Shown: piece after piece, positions 3 through 5,339 of the stretch
How positions within the stretch are numbered: position 1 is the stretch's first letter
How the letters are laid out: every line of letters starts with the position of its first letter
Origin: Bacillota bacterium
Lineage (GTDB): Bacteria > Bacillota > Clostridia > Tissierellales > Peptoniphilaceae
Direction: 5' to 3'
DNA length: 5,596 bases
Assembly (NCBI GenBank): GCA_023418835.1
Contig: JAEZYW010000094.1
Location: 1 to 5,596 of the forward strand
Notes under the pieces: generated by a model
Databases searched by the model: none
Seen by the model: the letters and a program-made list of their open reading frames with translations, nothing else
Told to the model about the DNA's origin: nothing
Position numbers and translations under genes: made by a program

Positions 3-656
3 GCTTATATTTTTGAATTAAAGGAATTGGAAGGTAGACTTCTACAAACTCTAGCATTTGTAATTGCTGGAATTATTGGCTGCATCATTGGAAAAATTAA
101 ATTTGGCAATCTAAAAAACATAGGACTTAAAAAATCTGAAATATCTAATTATAAAGATTACCTTTGGTTTTTCCCCCTTATTTTTATCGAAGTTTTGCCC
201 CTTTTCTTTGGCATCAAAAAGACCTTAAATACTCCCATTATTATTACATATATTATATTTACAATGGCAGTTGGATTTTCTGAAGAACTTTATTTTAGGG
301 GAATAATAGCAAAAACTTTAAAAAGGAAATCCATTTTATTTGCAATTTTAATTTCCTCTTTTTTATTTTCCATTGGTCATGCATCCAACCTATTGGCAGG
401 TGCGAATATATTTGATACGATCTTACAAATTGTATTTGCATTTATTTTTGGAGTTGTAGCCGTGGAAATTAGCTTTTCAATTGATAGCCTTGTTATTCCA
501 ATTTTGTGGCATACTTTACATAATTTTATCTCTCTAATTACTATTAGAAATGAAGGCAAATGGCCTTTTATTATCGGAATTATCCAAGGTTTCATTTTGG
601 CAATCTATGGAATTTTTTTATGGAAAATTTGTACTCAACAAGTAAAAAATAAGTAG
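3..656 (+). CDS. CPBP-family intramembrane metalloprotease, 5' end outside window
   Basis: This is a polytopic membrane protein of the CPBP (CAAX protease / bacteriocin-processing, Abi) family. The reading frame is open from the window edge (GCT at 3-5). The TTG at 27 is a poor start because AAAGGAA abuts it with no spacing, so I treat the gene as cut on the left. Numbering from that TTG, the family motifs are all present: E86-E87-x3-R91 (EELYFRG), F114-x3-H118 (FSIGH) and H162-x3-N166 (HTLHN). These are the presumed catalytic glutamate and metal or active-site residues. About six hydrophobic helices are visible, at roughly 5-22, 45-62, 69-84, 102-117, 128-148 and 180-199. Family members process prenylated proteins, bacteriocins or regulators, or give self-immunity to bacteriocins. 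The substrate here cannot be read from the sequence. The gene ends in a partly broken terminator stem whose intact twin lies about 380 bp downstream. Confidence 0.87.
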   Translation, partial: AYIFELKELEGRLLQTLAFVIAGIIGCIIGKIKFGNLKNIGLKKSEISNYKDYLWFFPLIFIEVLPLFFGIKKTLNTPIIITYIIFTMAVGFSEELYFRGIIAKTLKRKSILFAILISSFLFSIGHASNLLAGANIFDTILQIVFAFIFGVVAVEISFSIDSLVIPILWHTLHNFISLITIRNEGKWPFIIGIIQGFILAIYGIFLWKICTQQVKNK

Positions 657-730: not shown

Positions 731-836
731 ATGTTAATTGATATAGACAAAAAGTTTAAATTTGCAGAGGTGCTGAACTATGGTATTTCATGAATTTGGA
801 GATGAAAATTTAATTTGTCGGGGAGGGAATAGATGA
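731..836 (+). pseudogene. Possible frameshifted gene remnant, unidentified
   Basis: Two short overlapping frames look like pieces of one decayed coding sequence. One (731-793) reads MLIDIDKKFKFAEVLNYGIS. The other (780-836) reads MVFHEFGDENLICRGGNR, and its TGA overlaps the ATG of the next small gene as ATGA, the arrangement seen in operons. Neither piece alone is a convincing protein and I do not recognise the family. It may equally be chance open frame in AT-rich DNA. Confidence 0.22.
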
Positions 837-994
837 AGTTAAACAAAAATAAATTTGTACCAATAGGAATGTTATTTCTGGTATTAGCAATAACTTTAAA
901 TAAGGCATCCAACATTAGTGATTTAGTGGTTGGTATCTTATATGGCATATCAATAGCTGTATTGATTATTGGAATTATCGATAGCAGAAAGTAA
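833..994 (+). CDS. Small two-helix membrane protein, 53 aa, function unknown
   Basis: The ORF starts at ATG 833 behind a strong ribosome binding site (GGGAGGG at 821-827, 5-nt spacer) and ends with TAA at 992-994. The product has a basic N-terminus (MKLNKNKF), a hydrophobic helix at about residues 9-23, a short polar linker containing NKASNISD, a second helix at about 32-49, and the tail DSRK. This is a positive-inside, two-pass hairpin topology. The stop codon lies at the very start of the second direct-repeat copy, so the natural C-terminus may have been altered by the duplication. I do not recognise a named family. It could be a small membrane partner of a lost upstream regulator, or an accessory to the CPBP protease next door. 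The Shine-Dalgarno and the hydrophobic pattern are the only support that it is translated. Confidence 0.55.
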   Translation: MKLNKNKFVPIGMLFLVLAITLNKASNISDLVVGILYGISIAVLIIGIIDSRK

Positions 995-1107: not shown

Positions 1108-1833
1108 TTAGTTATTAAATAGCATATAACTTTTGAATAAAGATAGAAATTGGTCATATTCAATTTTATTTAAATCCTCAATATTTGCATATCTAATAGC
1201 TCTTTTAAATTGGTTTTTGGTAAACAATTTCTTATATTCTCCTTTAACCCATTTTGATACAAAATTCCCATAGGCTTTACGCTCCTTGGGAGCAATCCTT
1301 GACTCTTTTCTCTTTAGTGAAATAAGCATTCCATCTATTTTTGGTTCAGGGTGAAAATACCCGCGAGGAACTTTCATCAAAGCTCTTATTTTCATTTCCG
1401 ATTGAATCATTAGGGAAAGAGATTTTTTCATGTCCAATAATCTCTTTGCAAACCCGTACTCCACAATTAAAAAACACACATTAGCATTACTTTCAAATGC
1501 TATTTTTCGGACTATATCCGTACTAATTCCAAAGGGAATGTTTCCAAATATTTTGTAGGACACTTGATTTGGAAATTTATATTTTAATATATCCTCATTT
1601 ATTATTTTATAGTTTTCTTGATTATCTAATCTAGCTTCGGTTTTTTCACACATTTTTGGATCTATTTCCACCGCGGTAACAAAGTCGCAACGTTTTGCTA
1701 ATTCTTTCGTGAAATGACCTTTGCCCGAACCAATTTCAATTACATAATCCCTTTTTTCTATCTCTACCTGATTCATAATCTTTTCTATATGATTTTTTGA
1801 TGTGATAAAATTTTGACTGTATCTAATATTCAT
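1108..1833 (-). CDS. erm: Erm-family 23S rRNA (adenine-N6)-dimethyltransferase, macrolide resistance
   Basis: The product uses S-adenosylmethionine to N6-methylate the adenine of 23S rRNA equivalent to A2058, giving resistance to macrolides, lincosamides and streptogramin B. At 241 residues it has the usual Erm length. Visible motifs are the N-terminal SQNFITSK; SAM-binding motif I EIGSGKGHFT (33-42); the acidic strand end VEID (55-58); NEDIL (79-83); catalytic motif IV N98-I-P-F101; LIVEYGFAKRL; the aromatic YFHPEPK (159-165); and the C-terminal rRNA-binding lobe with EYKKLFTKNQF. By eye, compared with remembered sequences, it lies in the Erm(C)/(T)/(A) branch but is clearly diverged, and the motif IV aromatic is Phe where Erm(C) has Tyr. 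The ATG at 1833 has SD GAGAGG (1844-1839) at 5 nt. An elaborate leader precedes the gene and a terminator follows it. The exact erm class cannot be assigned without alignment. Confidence 0.95.
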   Translation of the reverse strand: MNIRYSQNFITSKNHIEKIMNQVEIEKRDYVIEIGSGKGHFTKELAKRCDFVTAVEIDPKMCEKTEARLDNQENYKIINEDILKYKFPNQVSYKIFGNIPFGISTDIVRKIAFESNANVCFLIVEYGFAKRLLDMKKSLSLMIQSEMKIRALMKVPRGYFHPEPKIDGMLISLKRKESRIAPKERKAYGNFVSKWVKGEYKKLFTKNQFKRAIRYANIEDLNKIEYDQFLSLFKSYMLFNN

Positions 1834-1838
1834 TAAAA

Positions 1839-1916
1839 CCTCTCTTCTTGAAAGGCAATAATGAATTATTCAATTATTCATTATCGCCTGCAATTATCGG
1901 ACAGATAGATAATGAA
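1839..1916 (-). promoter_or_regulatory. Erm(C)-type translational attenuator (stems 1:2, 3:4 versus 2:3)
   Basis: Four RNA segments can be read on the - strand. Segment 1 is UUCAUUAUC (1916-1908), inside leader codons 12-15. Segment 2 is GGCGAUAAUGAAU (1888-1876). Segment 3 is AUUCAUUAUUGCC (1866-1854), continuing to CCUUUC (1855-1850). Segment 4 is GAGAGG (1844-1839), the erm ribosome binding site. Segment 1 pairs with part of 2 (9 bp, perfect). CCUUUC pairs with GAGAGG (6 bp including one G.U, 5-nt loop), hiding the SD. Segments 2 and 3 pair over 13 bp with one G.U and consume the CC needed by the SD-hiding stem. A ribosome stalled at leader codon 9 would cover segment 1, free 2 to pair with 3, and expose the erm SD. 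This follows the known Erm(C) mechanism. The pairing is seen in the sequence and the function is inferred. Confidence 0.8.
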
Positions 1917-1950
1917 AATTGTTCACAACAAATATACTGAATAATAACAT
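1894..1950 (-). CDS. Erm(C)-type leader peptide with IFVV macrolide-arrest motif
   Basis: This 18-codon ORF reads MLLFSIFVVNNFHYLSVR. It has a strong SD, AAGGAG at 1961-1956, with 5 nt before the ATG. As I remember the Erm(C) leader (MGIFSIFVISTVHYQPNKK), the two align without gaps: F4, S5, I6, F7, V8, H13 and Y14 are shared, and the arrest motif IFVI is IFVV here at the same residues 6-9. In ErmCL the ribosome stalls with residue 9 in the P site when a cladinose macrolide sits in the tunnel, so stalling is expected here with Val9 in the P site and Asn10 next. Codons 12-15 form RNA segment 1 of the attenuator. The peptide is regulatory and has no known function of its own. Confidence 0.88.
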   Translation of the reverse strand: MLLFSIFVVNNFHYLSVR

Positions 1951-1979
1951 TTTTTCTCCTTAATAATATAAATTTCTAA

Positions 1980-2007
1980 ATTTTAAAATATATTGATTAG
2001 CTGGCAA
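1980..2007 (-). promoter_or_regulatory. Proximal erm promoter (P2)
   Basis: Read on the - strand, TTGCCA (2007-2002, 5 of 6 to TTGACA) is followed after 16 bp by TAAAAT (1985-1980, 5 of 6 to TATAAT). Transcription would start near 1973, about a dozen bases before the SD of the IFVV leader, which is a sensible position for an attenuator transcript. Another TTGCCA lies 24 bp further upstream (2031-2026) but has no -10 at proper spacing. Confidence 0.55.
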
Positions 2008-2032
2008 ATAATTTCTCTGAATTTTTGGCAAC

Positions 2033-2181
2033 AAAAAAGTAGACGTTTAAAACTAAAAGATTTGAGTTAGCCTAGTTATTTATAAAAAACCTATATTTAA
2101 ACTTAGAAAATTTTACCTGTAAGGATTTTTGATGAAAAAATAAGCATAACAAAGAATCTCTATTAAGAATAAAGTCTACTT
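2033..2181 (-). promoter_or_regulatory. Candidate transcription attenuator: distant inverted repeat plus U6 run
   Basis: On the - strand AAGTAGAC (2181-2174) lies 13 nt beyond the stop of the MTASIRLK ORF. Its exact complement GTCTACTT (2044-2037) runs into TTTT, making a six-T run (2038-2033). Two further A-T pairs can form across one mismatch. The right arm plus U run looks like the end of an intrinsic terminator. The arms are about 130 nt apart, however, and I found only weak pairing between them, so folding is uncertain. The rest of the interval is AT-rich with no gene that I can see. Confidence 0.35.
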
Positions 2182-2194
2182 CTATATTGATAAT

Positions 2195-2221
2195 TTATTT
2201 TAAACGGATTGAAGCTGTCAT
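2195..2221 (-). CDS. Eight-codon msr(A)-like macrolide leader peptide MTASIRLK
   Basis: The ORF is MTASIRLK followed by TAA. It is preceded by AAGGAA (2235-2230) with an 8-nt spacer and by a promoter. From memory, the leader of the staphylococcal ABC-F resistance gene msr(A) is MTASMRLK, so this differs at one residue. The RLK end is a +X+ motif (basic, any, basic), the arrest class known from the Erm(D) leader (MTHSMRLR...). Macrolide-bound ribosomes would stall with Leu7 in the P site and Lys8 incoming. No msr or other ABC-F gene lies in the window, and the next gene downstream is erm with its own leader. It may be an active first-stage sensor or the relic of a lost msr cassette. Less likely, it is the truncated start of a ribbon-helix-helix antitoxin, since such proteins often begin with similar residues. 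Confidence 0.65.
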   Translation of the reverse strand: MTASIRLK

Positions 2222-2256
2222 AAAATCATTTCCTTCTAAAAATTTTTTACAAAAAC

Positions 2257-2285
2257 AGTATAATCCAACCTGAATAAAAATACAA
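2257..2285 (-). promoter_or_regulatory. Distal promoter (P1) for MTASIRLK leader
   Basis: On the - strand TTGTAT (2285-2280) is followed after 17 bp by TATACT (2262-2257, 5 of 6 to consensus). The -35 is weak (3 of 6). Start of transcription would be near 2250, about 15 nt before the leader SD. The promoter begins only a few bases past the stop codon of the upstream repair gene, and no clear terminator separates them, so read-through from that operon is possible. Confidence 0.5.
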
Positions 2286-2288
2286 TGA

Positions 2289-3017
2289 TTATATACCAGT
2301 TCTTTCTGGCAAATACTTCCAATACCTTTTTGGCATATTGTTTTGCATCAACTTTAGGTTTTCTCTTTCGTCTATTTTTATTGCATTGTAAAATTCCAAC
2401 CAACATTCCTCAAAGAAATTGTCCTTTGAGCCTTTGTCTATATACATCGAGTCCACATCAAAATAGGAAGTTTCGCCACCGCTATAGATGCTACATTTAT
2501 TCCTATTTTTGTCTAAAATAATAAACTTTTCCTTTGGCATTCTATTTTTAAAATGAAATGTCAGCAAGTCCAAAATGTCGTTTTTGGGTTCGATTTCACT
2601 AAAAAAATAATCTCCCTTTATGACTTTAAATCTCAAAAGTCCTTTATAGCTGTGATTTTCAGAGTATACATTTTTTATTATTTGATTAAATTTAACTGCT
2701 TCTTCTGTAGAACCTTGTAAGTAGACATTTCCGTAAATATATTTTCCTTTTATGACTCTGGCAATTGCAGTTCCTTTTTCTAAATCGTAGGATCGAAATG
2801 CGGTTTTTATGCTGTTTAAAAAGTTAAATCCAAAATTTTTAACTATTGAGTCTTTAACCCTTTTATAATATTCTTTTGAAGTTTCAATTATTATTTCGTC
2901 TGATAAAAAGGAGTTTTCAGTGGATTTTGGATAAAAGTGGGCGTTTTCAATGCTTTTATATCCCACAAAAATCCCGGAAAACAATCCCTCAATAGTGTCA
3001 TCGTAGATGTATTTCAT
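2289..3017 (-). CDS. DUF4130 / TIGR03915-family putative DNA metabolism protein
   Basis: This is the partner protein that is habitually encoded beside the radical SAM repair-like protein upstream. I choose ATG at 3017 (MKYIYDDTIEGLFSGIF, 242 aa) because the family begins with a Met just before its YDxxxEGL motif. A TTG at 3026 would add three residues and overlap the upstream gene. The ATG lies one base past the upstream stop, with no strong SD, which points to translational coupling. The DUF4130 part is recognisable from about GLLRFKVIKGDYFFSEIEP onward, then HFKNRMPKEKFIILD and the C-terminal block with the acidic helix IDERENLKLMQ and MPKRYWKYLPE. No signal peptide or membrane segment is seen, so the protein is cytoplasmic. 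The family is predicted to act in DNA modification or repair by co-occurrence with uracil-DNA-glycosylase-like and radical SAM proteins. Its biochemical activity is unknown to me. Confidence 0.85.
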   Translation of the reverse strand: MKYIYDDTIEGLFSGIFVGYKSIENAHFYPKSTENSFLSDEIIIETSKEYYKRVKDSIVKNFGFNFLNSIKTAFRSYDLEKGTAIARVIKGKYIYGNVYLQGSTEEAVKFNQIIKNVYSENHSYKGLLRFKVIKGDYFFSEIEPKNDILDLLTFHFKNRMPKEKFIILDKNRNKCSIYSGGETSYFDVDSMYIDKGSKDNFFEECWLEFYNAIKIDERENLKLMQNNMPKRYWKYLPERTGI

Positions 3018-3018
3018 A

Positions 3019-4251
3019 TTATCCAAAGAAGGAAAGTTGCTCTACATTCGTTCCTTCTTGCCTCCTTATCATTTCTCTTAAATCTTCTTTGGAAGAAAAC
3101 TTACTTCCTCGATATTTTCCACCAACTGTTATAAAGTTAATTGCCCTTTTTGTAGAAATTTTCAGAAGTTTTAAATCGTCAAAGGTCAAATTTGCAAATT
3201 TTCTAGCTTGAATAATTCGCCAAGCATATGTAGTTCCAATGCCGGGAATTCGTATTAACTCTTCATAACTCGCCCTATTTAACTCCAAGGGAAAGAGGTT
3301 TAAATTTTCCAAAGCCCAATTTGCCTTTGGGTCTAGAGTCAAATCGAAGTAAGGATTATCTTTTTTTAGTATTTCTCCAGCAGTAAATCCATAGAACCTC
3401 AACAGCCAATCTGCTTGATAAATTCTGTGCTCTCGAAGCATGGGAACTTTTGTGATGCCTTCTGTAAGACTTGACTTAACCACTGGAACATATCCAGAAT
3501 AAAAAACTCTCTTTAGTTTAAAATCTTGATACAAGGATTCAGCCCTGTTTATTATGGTAAGATCATCTTCTTTGCTAGCACCTACAATCATTTGGGTGGA
3601 TTGACCTGCAGGTAAAAACAGGGGAGTCTTCTTGTGTCTCTTTTTGTCTTCGACGTATTCCGAAATTGAATCTGCGGCGTATCCCATTGGTTTAAAAATG
3701 CTTTCATAGGATTTTTGAGGTGCCAACAAATCCAAAGATTTTTGTGTAGGCAGTTCAATATTTACACTCATTCTATCGATTAGTGAACCCAACTTTTTTA
3801 TAAGTTCGTCAGAGGAGCCGGGGATGGCTTTCATATGAATATAACCATTGAAATGCTCTTTATTTCTCAAAAGATCTGCAACTTCGATGAGCTTTAACAT
3901 GGTTTCGTCTGGACTTTTTATTATTCCGCTGGATAAAAACAATCCCTCAATATAATTTCGCTTATAGAAATTTATTACCAAATCGGAAATTTCTTTGGGC
4001 GTAAATTCCGCTCTTTCTATGTGGTTTTCTTTTCTATTTATACAGTATTCACAAGAGTAGATGCACTTGTTAGTTAGAAGAATTTTTAAAAGGCAAATGC
4101 ATCTTCCGTCCTCAGACCAACAGTGGCAAATTCCAGAACTAGCTGCATTTCCAAGACCTCCCTTATTTCCTCTGGAAGAACCGCTTGATGAACAACTCAC
4201 GTCATATTTTGCAGCATCTGTAAGTATTCTAAGTTTTTCTTTTATATCCAT
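3019..4251 (-). CDS. Putative DNA modification/repair radical SAM protein (TIGR03916 type)
   Basis: This 410-residue cytoplasmic protein has the radical SAM cluster motif C63-x3-C67-x2-C70 (NKCIYSCEYC), which binds a 4Fe-4S cluster and SAM. The N-terminus carries the family signature YDVSCSSSGSSRG (16-28) and additional cysteines C42, C44, C51 and C53. The central barrel includes FLSSGI, NGYIHMKAIPG, DRMSVNIELP and PAGQSTQMIVGA. Towards the end, LREHRIYQADWLLRFYGF is followed by a helix-hairpin-helix DNA-binding segment around LIRIPGIGTTYAWRI (332-346). The last residues, QLSFFG, resemble a beta-clamp-binding motif. The ATG at 4251 is preceded by GGCGGTGAG. The gene is first in a two-gene operon with the DUF4130 protein, and a LexA-box-like site lies in its promoter. 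The family is predicted to modify or repair DNA. Spore photoproduct lyase is a well-known radical SAM repair enzyme, but this is a different family. The substrate is unknown. Confidence 0.9.
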   Translation of the reverse strand: MDIKEKLRILTDAAKYDVSCSSSGSSRGNKGGLGNAASSGICHCWSEDGRCICLLKILLTNKCIYSCEYCINRKENHIERAEFTPKEISDLVINFYKRNYIEGLFLSSGIIKSPDETMLKLIEVADLLRNKEHFNGYIHMKAIPGSSDELIKKLGSLIDRMSVNIELPTQKSLDLLAPQKSYESIFKPMGYAADSISEYVEDKKRHKKTPLFLPAGQSTQMIVGASKEDDLTIINRAESLYQDFKLKRVFYSGYVPVVKSSLTEGITKVPMLREHRIYQADWLLRFYGFTAGEILKKDNPYFDLTLDPKANWALENLNLFPLELNRASYEELIRIPGIGTTYAWRIIQARKFANLTFDDLKLLKISTKRAINFITVGGKYRGSKFSSKEDLREMIRRQEGTNVEQLSFFG

Positions 4252-4327: not shown

Positions 4328-4355
4328 TTGACAATACTACGGATAGTGATATAAT
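4328..4355 (+). promoter_or_regulatory. Promoter of padR-DUF2812-lipoprotein operon
   Basis: TTGACA (4328-4333) and TATAAT (4350-4355) are both perfect consensus, with a 16-bp spacer. Transcription should start near 4362. The spacer and the start region are covered by two copies of the operator, so a strong promoter held down by its own repressor is likely. Confidence 0.88.
4334..4353 (+). promoter_or_regulatory. PadR operator copy 1
   Basis: ATACTACGGATAGTGATATA occupies the promoter spacer and the first bases of the -10. Its core ACTA-CGGA-TAGT is an inverted repeat, as expected for a dimeric winged-helix repressor. An identical copy lies 33 bp downstream, about three helical turns away. 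Confidence 0.75.
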
Positions 4356-4366
4356 AAAATTAAGAT

Positions 4367-4386
4367 ATACTACGGATAGTGATATA
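4367..4386 (+). promoter_or_regulatory. PadR operator copy 2
   Basis: This is an exact 20-bp repeat of the 4334-4353 sequence. It begins a few bases after the expected transcription start and ends just before the ribosome binding site (AAAGGAAG, 4388-4395). Two phased sites fit cooperative autorepression by PadR. Confidence 0.75.
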
Positions 4387-4399
4387 GAAAGGAAGAATT

Positions 4400-4732
4400 A
4401 TGGCTAGGGATAATTTATCCAGTGGGGCTTTGACTGAGACAACTCTCCTTGTACTTTTGTGTCTATATGAGGAGCTCCACGGATACGGAGTGAAACTTTT
4501 AATTGAAGAAAAAACAAATGGCAGGGTGGAGCTGGGAATGGGAACCTTGTATGGGGCTTTGACAAATTTAGAAGAAAAAGGCTGGATTAGGGAATCTTCT
4601 AAAGAGGGAAGAAGAATTAATTACATAATTACTCAAGAGGGAAAGGCCCAGGTAAAAAACGAGCAAGAGAGATTGTCCAATTTATTGGATTTGGTTAACA
4701 AAACTAAGGAGAAGTACAATGATAAAGTTTAA
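4400..4732 (+). CDS. PadR-family transcriptional repressor
   Basis: This 110-residue winged-helix protein has the PadR pattern throughout: LTETTLLVLLCLYEELHGYGVKL (helices 1-2, 11-33), LIEEKTNGRVELGMGTLYGALTNLEEKGWI (recognition helix and wing start, 34-63), the wing GRRINYIITQEGKAQV (70-85), and a short C-terminal dimerisation helix. PadR proteins repress nearby genes and usually themselves. Here two identical operator copies cover its own promoter. SD AAAGGA precedes the ATG. The gene overlaps the next one by 14 bp, so the two are co-translated. The inducer is unknown. Relatives respond to phenolic acids, drugs or envelope stress, and nothing in the sequence decides among these. Confidence 0.93.
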   Translation: MARDNLSSGALTETTLLVLLCLYEELHGYGVKLLIEEKTNGRVELGMGTLYGALTNLEEKGWIRESSKEGRRINYIITQEGKAQVKNEQERLSNLLDLVNKTKEKYNDKV

Positions 4733-5339
4733 GTTGTTTTTAGATCCCATATCTTCTATTGGGCCTTGGTTAAATTCCATAGCGTCAAAGGGTTATAGAC
4801 TTGTTGCTATCAATAATTTTATCTACAAATTTGAAAAGACAGATGAAATCTATTCCTACTCTTCAACTTTTGTAGGGGCAAATACCGTAAGGGAAAATAA
4901 GGGATTAGAAAATTTATTGGAAGATTCTAATATTAAAACTTTTAGAGCGCCTTTGAACCAAGGAAATATTACCTTTGGTAAATTTAGATTTAGACCATAT
5001 GTAAAAGGCGAAAGCAATTTAGCTTCTACTTTTGGGGATTTTAATAAGGAAATACTAGTTGTAGAAACCAAAGGGAAAACTCCAGAGAAGCTTTTCACTT
5101 TAAATGAAGACATTTCAAAAGAATATAAAACCATTAGAAATGCCTATTTACAAGGATTTGTTGCCATGATTTTTTTGATGGGAATTTTGGCTTATCAAAA
5201 TATGGAAAACTTGTCGGGTTTTAGCTTTTTAGCAAAAGAAATTTTGGTATTGATAATTGCAATTTACATATTTACCATTGTAATTTCTTCCCATAAAAAT
5301 TACAAAAAGTATAAAAACTTGTCTGAAATAACAGAGTAA
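4719..5339 (+). CDS. DUF2812-family membrane protein
   Basis: The 206-residue product begins with the DUF2812 signature: KFKLFLDPISSIGPWLNSIASKGYRLVAI, then FIYKFEK and the YSYSSTF strand (residues 3-51). A cytoplasmic soluble part runs to about 140, followed by two hydrophobic helices at about 144-160 and 170-190 and a basic tail (SHKNYKKYKN), which suggests both ends lie inside. DUF2812 proteins are commonly encoded immediately after a PadR regulator, as here, and may act as a membrane sensor or partner for it. This role is inference from synteny. The start ATG lies inside the end of padR with its own SD (AAGGAG, 7-nt spacer). Confidence 0.88.
   Translation: MIKFKLFLDPISSIGPWLNSIASKGYRLVAINNFIYKFEKTDEIYSYSSTFVGANTVRENKGLENLLEDSNIKTFRAPLNQGNITFGKFRFRPYVKGESNLASTFGDFNKEILVVETKGKTPEKLFTLNEDISKEYKTIRNAYLQGFVAMIFLMGILAYQNMENLSGFSFLAKEILVLIIAIYIFTIVISSHKNYKKYKNLSEITE

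Follow-up and report, generated by a model that had tools for sequence, protein, structure and literature searches.

A 5,596 bp stretch of contig JAEZYW010000094.1 of a Bacillota bacterium (hereafter the window) contains a predicted erm gene that is preceded by two leader peptides of different macrolide-arrest classes. The first is the octapeptide MTASIRLK (leader 1, +X+ class), which belongs to a mef-type module; the second, 271 bases downstream from start to start, is the Erm(C)-type leader MLLFSIFVVNNFHYLSVR (leader 2, IFVV class), followed by an attenuator predicted to hide the Shine-Dalgarno sequence (SD) of erm. The original prediction, an earlier reading of the same DNA, had claimed such a succession of leaders, and both frames with their SDs are present (Table 1). 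Both devices are known singly; the window stacks a +X+ mef-type leader before an IFV-class leader on one erm, an arrangement unique to it in a sample that holds 63 other erm loci. We favour, with some reservation, the view that the locus is a composite of the two devices, in which erm is switched mainly at translation and leader 1 is unlikely to gate transcription.

Leader 1 is of the mef type

An IUPAC DNA pattern for the octapeptide matched the window once and matched none of 200 shuffled sequences, which, together with the AAGGA SD, bears out the claim that MTASIRLK is a leader open reading frame (ORF). Within the class of Lagierella massiliensis, five of 391 genomes matched this pattern and none matched it reversed. 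All five matches (L089-L093) precede a mef-like gene, and two of them have Ile5 as the window does. Among the viral contigs searched, the octapeptide followed by AAATAA was absent; followed by AGATAA it was present in 8 stretches, and the four with enough DNA all place it before mef. Leader 1 retains Ser4, Arg6, Leu7 and Lys8; in ErmDL, Ser4, Arg6, Leu7 and a positive residue at position 8 are the positions that matter (PMC8298421; here and below, papers are cited from the accessible portions of their text). Moreover, the leader 1 ORF is identical to its five relatives at 19-21 of 24 bases, compared with 56-67% of the aligned downstream bases (binomial p 0.006-0.017, five non-independent comparisons). 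Conservation of the ORF above its flank hints at selection on the leader 1 peptide.

Leader 1 had been likened to the leader of msr(A). Two msr(A) plasmid records (L158, L159) do encode MTASMRLK, which has 7 of 8 residues in common with the window peptide. However, the likeness ends with the peptide: the RNA behind it is mef-like, as set out below. A plasmid search with window positions 2020-2300 returned nothing significant (best E 0.2 among the matches listed), a phage search with positions 1840-2300 returned no match, and the two weak Rfam matches, with E 0.043 and E 0.99, fell short of their gathering scores, neither being to a leader family.

The RNA behind leader 1 resembles mef attenuators but lacks their terminator

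The 230 nt past the leader 1 stop were aligned with 12 comparators and scored against 1000 dinucleotide shuffles. The comparators were nine mef loci (L089-L093, L160-L163), two erm loci (L138, L144) and msr(A); these are related and hence not independent. The best alignments were to the erm locus L144 (score 82) and the mef locus L092 (score 79), each equalled by 0/1000 shuffles. For the other eight mef loci 8-27/1000 shuffles were as good, and for L138 80/1000. There was no similarity to msr(A), for which 539/1000 shuffles did as well. Summed over all 12 comparators, the alignment was matched by a single shuffle in 1000. The pieces that the window has in common with the comparators are the first distal repeat, TTCTTTGTTATGCTTATT and TTTTTTGTTGCC. 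As judged from its sequence, the module after leader 1 resembles that of mef and not that of msr(A).

In mef(E), six bases separate the leader from the first distal repeat, and the second repeat carries a U run; pairing of the two is the proposed antiterminator, and the terminator is a local hairpin (PMC4335068). The window has a distant inverted repeat with arms at 2171-2189 and 2029-2047, which are separated by 123 nt and 79% complementary. It is most likely the counterpart of this antiterminator because the mef(E) distal repeats hold that position and proposed role. Thus, of the distant repeat ending in U6 that had been taken for a terminator, the repeat exists, whereas the terminator role is not confirmed, there being no hairpin directly before U6.

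A terminator hairpin is found at the last U run in 11/12 comparators, at -8.7 to -18.0 kcal/mol. Among the mef loci the values are -13.3 (L089), -14.7 (L090), -13.7 (L091), -14.4 (L092), -14.7 (L093), -14.7 (L160), -1.9 (L161), -18.0 (L162) and -10.2 (L163); L138 and L144 have -8.7 and -9.5, and msr(A) -16.4. In the window, no hairpin was found directly before the U6 at 2038-2033 or at ~2140, and the U run at ~2089 has one of merely -1.7 kcal/mol. A segment aligning with R1/R2 is present in the window, yet it folds no more strongly than shuffled sequence (z-score +0.75, against -0.94 to -2.56 in the nine mef loci and -2.28 in L144). The long-range fold has a z-score of -3.08, whereas the comparators with mef or erm range from -4.1 to -7.84. 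These folds suggest that long-range pairing persists in the window, in weaker form than in the comparators and without a terminating state.

A covariance model (R1) was built from nine comparators with the window left out. Its best match in the window, at 2197-2112, scored 16.6 bits (E 0.028 in 5.6 kb; next match 12.0 bits). This match is supporting evidence for a mef-type sequence and too weak to prove homology alone.

Among known systems, mef(E)/mel (mefA/msrD), with the leader Mef(E)L MTASMRLR, is like the window in its octapeptide with +X+ at residues 6-8, in the -10 element TATACT, in an R2-like segment and in two distal repeats, the first 5-6 nt past the leader and the second with a U run and (A/G)UUGCC (PMC4335068, PMC10314930). 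The window differs in lacking the local terminator R5/R6, in its weak R1/R2 and in having Lys8 for Arg8; its module is followed by a second leader and erm instead of mef. Given the lack of that terminator, the window module is not counted here as a working attenuator of the mef(E) type. The msr(A) system has a strong local terminator, which the window has not.

Leader 2 and its attenuator form a predicted Erm(C)-type switch

The claim of an Erm(C)-like IFVV leader and an SD-sequestering attenuator before erm is upheld by the AAGGAG SD of leader 2 and by the predicted folds. In the full RNA, strands 1:2 and 3:4 of the attenuator are paired, leaving the erm SD unpaired at 0.13 and the ATG at 0.00. 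Removal of the RNA to 1916 left this fold unchanged. With the RNA removed to 1912 the values rose to 0.29 (SD) and 0.19 (ATG) and the minimum free energy (MFE) structure did not flip; at 1908 it flipped to 2:3, with SD and ATG partly freed (0.39 and 0.27). The expected ribosome edge is at ~1910, so that the modelled geometry fits but is sensitive to the edge assumed. Ile9 of ErmCL is the site of productive arrest (PMC13148051), and Val9 is its counterpart in leader 2. The folding model therefore points to a complete, intact ErmC-type translational switch at leader 2.

The erm(C) and erm(T)-like attenuators (ErmCL MGIFSIFVISTVHYQPNKK, L154) share with the window the FSIFV core at residues 4-8, four strands that hide the SD and ATG of erm, and arrest codon 9 in the matching place. 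The window differs in having IFVV for IFVI, an MLL N-terminus and an unrelated leader module upstream.

Promoters had been proposed before each leader. P2, before leader 2, withstood comparison with shuffled sequence: its score of 10/12 was reached by 25/1000 local shuffles, which is above chance. P1, before leader 1, did not, since its 8/12 was equalled by 555/1000 and is no better than chance by consensus. However, the -10 of P1 (TATACT) is identical to the published mef(E) -10 (PMC4335068). P1 starts three bases past the end of the TIGR03915 coding region, and read-through from the TIGR03915 operon into the leader region is possible.

What the two leaders may do together

In the composite that we favour, erm is likely switched mainly at translation through leader 2, where drug-dependent arrest would occur at Val9. 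Leader 1 would still arrest macrolide-bound ribosomes, at Leu7/Lys8 (arrest position after PMC8298421). Since the window lacks the terminator hairpin that relatives of leader 1 have, leader 1 probably does not control transcription, and a P1 transcript, if any, would read through into erm. Arrest of Mef(E)L is reported to protect the 5' end of its transcript (PMC4335068). By analogy, any effect of arrest at leader 1 would come from shielding the long transcript at its 5' end, which is the role we prefer for leader 1. Probably the whole module, a mef or erm attenuator, was acquired in one piece and came to lie in front of an erm whose own leader was retained. As the RNA switch looks complete for leader 2 alone, leader 1 is probably an addition that is partly worn and does not work as a second lock.

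Several observations weigh against this reading. P1, which would supply the long transcript, scores at chance. Deletion of dIR1 in mef(E) raised uninduced expression 4.8-fold (PMC4335068), so that long-range pairing does not act purely as an antiterminator and might terminate in the window. Weakness of the local structures is not confined to the window, as the hairpin of the mef locus L161 is also weak and so is the R1/R2 fold of L138 (z -0.45). When the covariance model was run over 57 sources (294,926 bases), the window match was not within E 1, and a match in L170 (18.2 bits) scored above it. The fold change at the erm attenuator depends on the assumed ribosome edge. Lastly, the composite was seen once, on a single contig.

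A possible but doubtful alternative is that both leaders act, each as a sensor. The +X+ leader, answering ketolides and macrolides, would set the amount or lifetime of the erm transcript by conditional long-range pairing or 5' end protection, and the IFVV leader, answering cladinose macrolides, would set translation, in a modular fusion of mef-type and erm(C)-type riboregulators. The +X+ leader ErmDL answers telithromycin (PMC8298421), and the telithromycin minimum inhibitory concentration is unchanged by an inducible ermCL-ermC operon (PMC13148051). By analogy with these two leaders, the different drug specificity proposed for the pair is plausible. A single erm could then respond to two sets of drugs, provided that both leaders act.

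We consider it unlikely that the locus is under the two-stage control, transcriptional then translational, which the original prediction had put forward as a possibility. Here, the stem 2171-2189/2029-2047 with U6 would terminate transcription without drug, arrest on MTASIRLK would prevent this, and the IFVV leader would gate translation. The long-range fold is indeed stronger than shuffled sequence, its 3' arm runs into U6, and leader 1 keeps the four residues named above. However, the geometry does not suit such a role. With the ribosome edge taken as about 16 nt, arrest with Leu7 in the P site would leave the RNA covered to ~2187. Most of the 5' arm (2186-2171) would be left free, and arrest would not block pairing. 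In folds with the RNA removed to 2190, 2187 and 2184 the stem stays, so that leader 1 arrest would not remove it. There is also no local hairpin before U6, the mef(E) counterpart of the stem is a proposed antiterminator, and P1 is at chance. Moreover, in one fold of the long transcript leader 1 arrest hides the SD of leader 2 (unpaired 0.42 -> 0.03), which would argue against any help from leader 1; as a single modelled fold it carries little weight. The translational stage of the proposal is thus retained, by fold prediction, and the transcriptional stage is not: the terminator is missing, R1/R2 is weak and P1 is at chance.

It is quite unlikely that the upstream module is a decayed and inert relic, with P2 and the IFVV leader alone driving erm as in erm(C). 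Loss of the terminator and of R1/R2 would agree with this, as would a P1 at chance beside a P2 above it. However, an arrest-type sequence has been preserved in the octapeptide despite divergence of the surrounding RNA, with the non-independent p values given above, and leader 1 has a usable SD. If leader 1 has decayed, the window would capture the loss of one control stage after a second had taken over. That MTASIRLK is a chance ORF and no leader is extremely unlikely: although short ORFs are common in AT-rich DNA and P1 is at chance, the pattern is absent from the shuffles and, reversed, from the genomes, its five genome matches all lead mef, and mef-like RNA follows it.

The leader pair and the mobility of the mef-type device

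The 63 other erm loci comprised all 39 that exceeded the cut-off among 249 order genomes and L144 below it, 13 from 391 class genomes, 2 from 398 phylum genomes, 4 viral and 4 plasmid loci. For each, 700 nt of upstream DNA were used, except L154 (135), L116 (497) and L175 (466). The loci are a sample rather than a census, as the 4 plasmid regions (L153-L156) stand for >1772 plasmid erm records and 31 phage records lie outside. A script found an IFV/IAVV-class leader in 27/63 loci and a leader-like +X+ peptide in 21/63. By manual reading, 15/63 have neither class, and no locus of the 63 has both in recognisable form.

The pattern did flag +X+ strings in 7 of the 27 IFV/IAVV loci. Six of these (L096, L098, L104, L108, L117, L131) were rejected as chance, since the ORFs concerned, at -391 to -699, do not recur across their class, and the flag in L164 overlaps the IFVI leader itself, lying inside it. 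Far ORFs in L132, L133 and L167 and extra far +X+ ORFs in L121, L135, L138 and L176 were set aside too. In the viral contig L131, two IFV/LFV-like short ORFs, MGNCSLFVIDFSIFV and the TTG-start MGIFSIFVINTVHYQPNEK, lie ~105-245 nt 5' of erm.

The accessible text of the literature on macrolide leaders (including PMC11264731, PMC10219788 and PMC8298421) gives no example of an erm in which a +X+ leader is stacked before one of the IFV class; the survey in PMC11264731 covered ~250 bp of upstream DNA, too little to include a leader that, as in the window, lies at -388. Stacked leaders of different classes are not unprecedented, since the mefA/msrD operon has MefAL and MsrDL together (PMC10314930). 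The erm(A)-class double leader (IAVV then IFVI; L095, L164) likewise places two leaders before one erm, the second of the IFV class. However, both of its leaders belong to one nested translational attenuator, whereas the first leader of the window is +X+ and mef-like and lies 271 nt upstream. In tlrB/yxjB of B. subtilis, a +X+ (RYR) leader controls an rRNA methylase by attenuating both its transcription and its translation, but there, unlike in the window, a single leader does both jobs (PMC6851288).

Searches with the covariance model returned 11 matches in 249 order genomes, 8 before mef, 2 before erm (L182, the L144 locus, and L186, the L138 locus) and 1 spurious (L187). In 291 class genomes there were 7 matches, 6 before mef and 1 spurious (L193). 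L138 (1492-1673) has a mef-type attenuator with the leader MTASIRLR (TTG start), and L144 (1378-1585) one with MLHSVRIRK; each has a terminator and lies directly before an erm-like gene with 36-37% identity to the window erm. As in the window, a mef-type module has been captured by erm, and L144 is the best match of the window; unlike the window, both have a local terminator and no IFV leader. The viral-collection contig L129 (342-2428, = L197) carries a mef leader, next a mef frame shortened to 266 aa, and after it an Erm that shares 60% identity with that of the window, an arrangement which is a possible route for such fusions. The mef-type device therefore stands before mef in most loci found, directly before erm in two, and before an already-led erm in the window. 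Macrolide-sensing attenuators would thus be modules that move between genes.

A group of Erm with 25-28% identity (L118, L122, L123, L136, L137, L141, L142, L143) has a common leader, e.g. MGIAS(I/M)RIRNLVVK, and, in an alignment of the eight loci, a conserved upstream terminator hairpin AAAGCTATARATG...CATTTATAGCTTTTTTT. This group apparently uses +X+ transcription attenuation of erm. Candidate tandem leaders in four of these loci (MNSLFIYS.../MDRLFIYS...; L118, L122, L123, L142) were rejected, as the conserved hairpin is the terminator.

The erm gene and its surroundings

The window Erm passes the broad Erm model NF000499 (265.3 bits, cut-off 212) and scores under the threshold of each named Erm class among those listed. 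Its identity to other relatives is 62% at most among the 120 of 243 relatives listed (itself included). The protein is listed on one contig of 5596 bases, with 4 member sequences, and a scan of genome contigs for the same erm elsewhere found no relative. Erm classes are usually named by a rule of 80% identity, under which this erm would count as a new class. Residues 97-105 (~1545-1519, - strand) read GNIPFGIST, where most aligned Erm have GNIPYNIST. The Phe of NIPFG also occurs in P0049 and P0089, the common motif being NIPYN, and Gly102 is unique among nine aligned Erm. A2058 methylation and macrolide-lincosamide-streptogramin resistance are predicted for this protein.

Table 1. Positions of the leaders, attenuator elements, promoter-like sequences and genes in the window.
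Feature	Position	Strand	Remarks
CPBP protease gene	27-656	+	
53-aa ORF	833-994	+	
erm	1108-1833	-	241 aa; predicted 23S rRNA adenine-N6 methyltransferase outside every named Erm class
erm ribosome-binding region and start codon	1831-1846	-	attenuator strand 4
Attenuator strand 3	1870-1854	-	inverted repeat I4
Attenuator strand 2	1888-1872	-	inverted repeat I4, 89% complementary to strand 3
Attenuator strand 1	1918-1908	-	leader 2 codons
Leader 2, MLLFSIFVVNNFHYLSVR and stop	1950-1894	-	IFVV class, by translation
Leader 2 SD, AAGGAG	1961-1956	-	
Promoter-like P2, TTGCCA-16-TAAAAT	2007-1980	-	10/12 consensus
Distal repeat 2 with U6 (2038-2033) and GUUGCC	2027-2047	-	counterpart of mef dIR2
R2-like segment, TTCTTTGTTATGCTTATT	2139-2156	-	aligns with mef-type attenuators
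Distal repeat 1	2171-2189	-	counterpart of mef dIR1; 5 nt past leader 1 stop; inverted repeat I5
Leader 1, MTASIRLK and stop (ATGACAGCTTCAATCCGTTTAAAATAA)	2221-2195	-	+X+ class
Leader 1 SD, AAGGA	2235-2231	-	
Promoter-like P1, TTGTAT-17-TATACT	2259-2286	-	8/12 consensus
TIGR03915 gene	2289-3026	-	stop at 2289
TIGR03916 radical SAM gene	3019-4251	-	
padR (PadR)	4400-4732	+	
DUF2812 gene	4719-5339	+	

The radical SAM gene is 77% identical to that of L. massiliensis, which ranks first among the 80 loci retained from 124 relatives; the host is therefore likely to belong to the Peptoniphilus group. An erm 3' of TIGR03915 was absent in all 12 relatives inspected (L001-L011, L013). The best Erm matches in the genomes of 8 of these were partial alignments at 28-37% identity, in frames of 283-326 aa, and would by inference be KsgA.

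On the other side of erm, a near-exact direct repeat (611-678 / 993-1059; 38 nt at 95% and 34 nt at 100%) flanks the 53-aa ORF and duplicates the end of the CPBP gene. A palindrome 3' of erm (1032-1066) is probably a terminator for both strands. Upstream of padR, a promoter scoring 12/12 with a TG ahead of its -10 lies at 4328-4386, and two exact copies of ATACTACGGATAGTGATATA (4334-4353, 4367-4386), likely candidates for PadR operators, overlap it.

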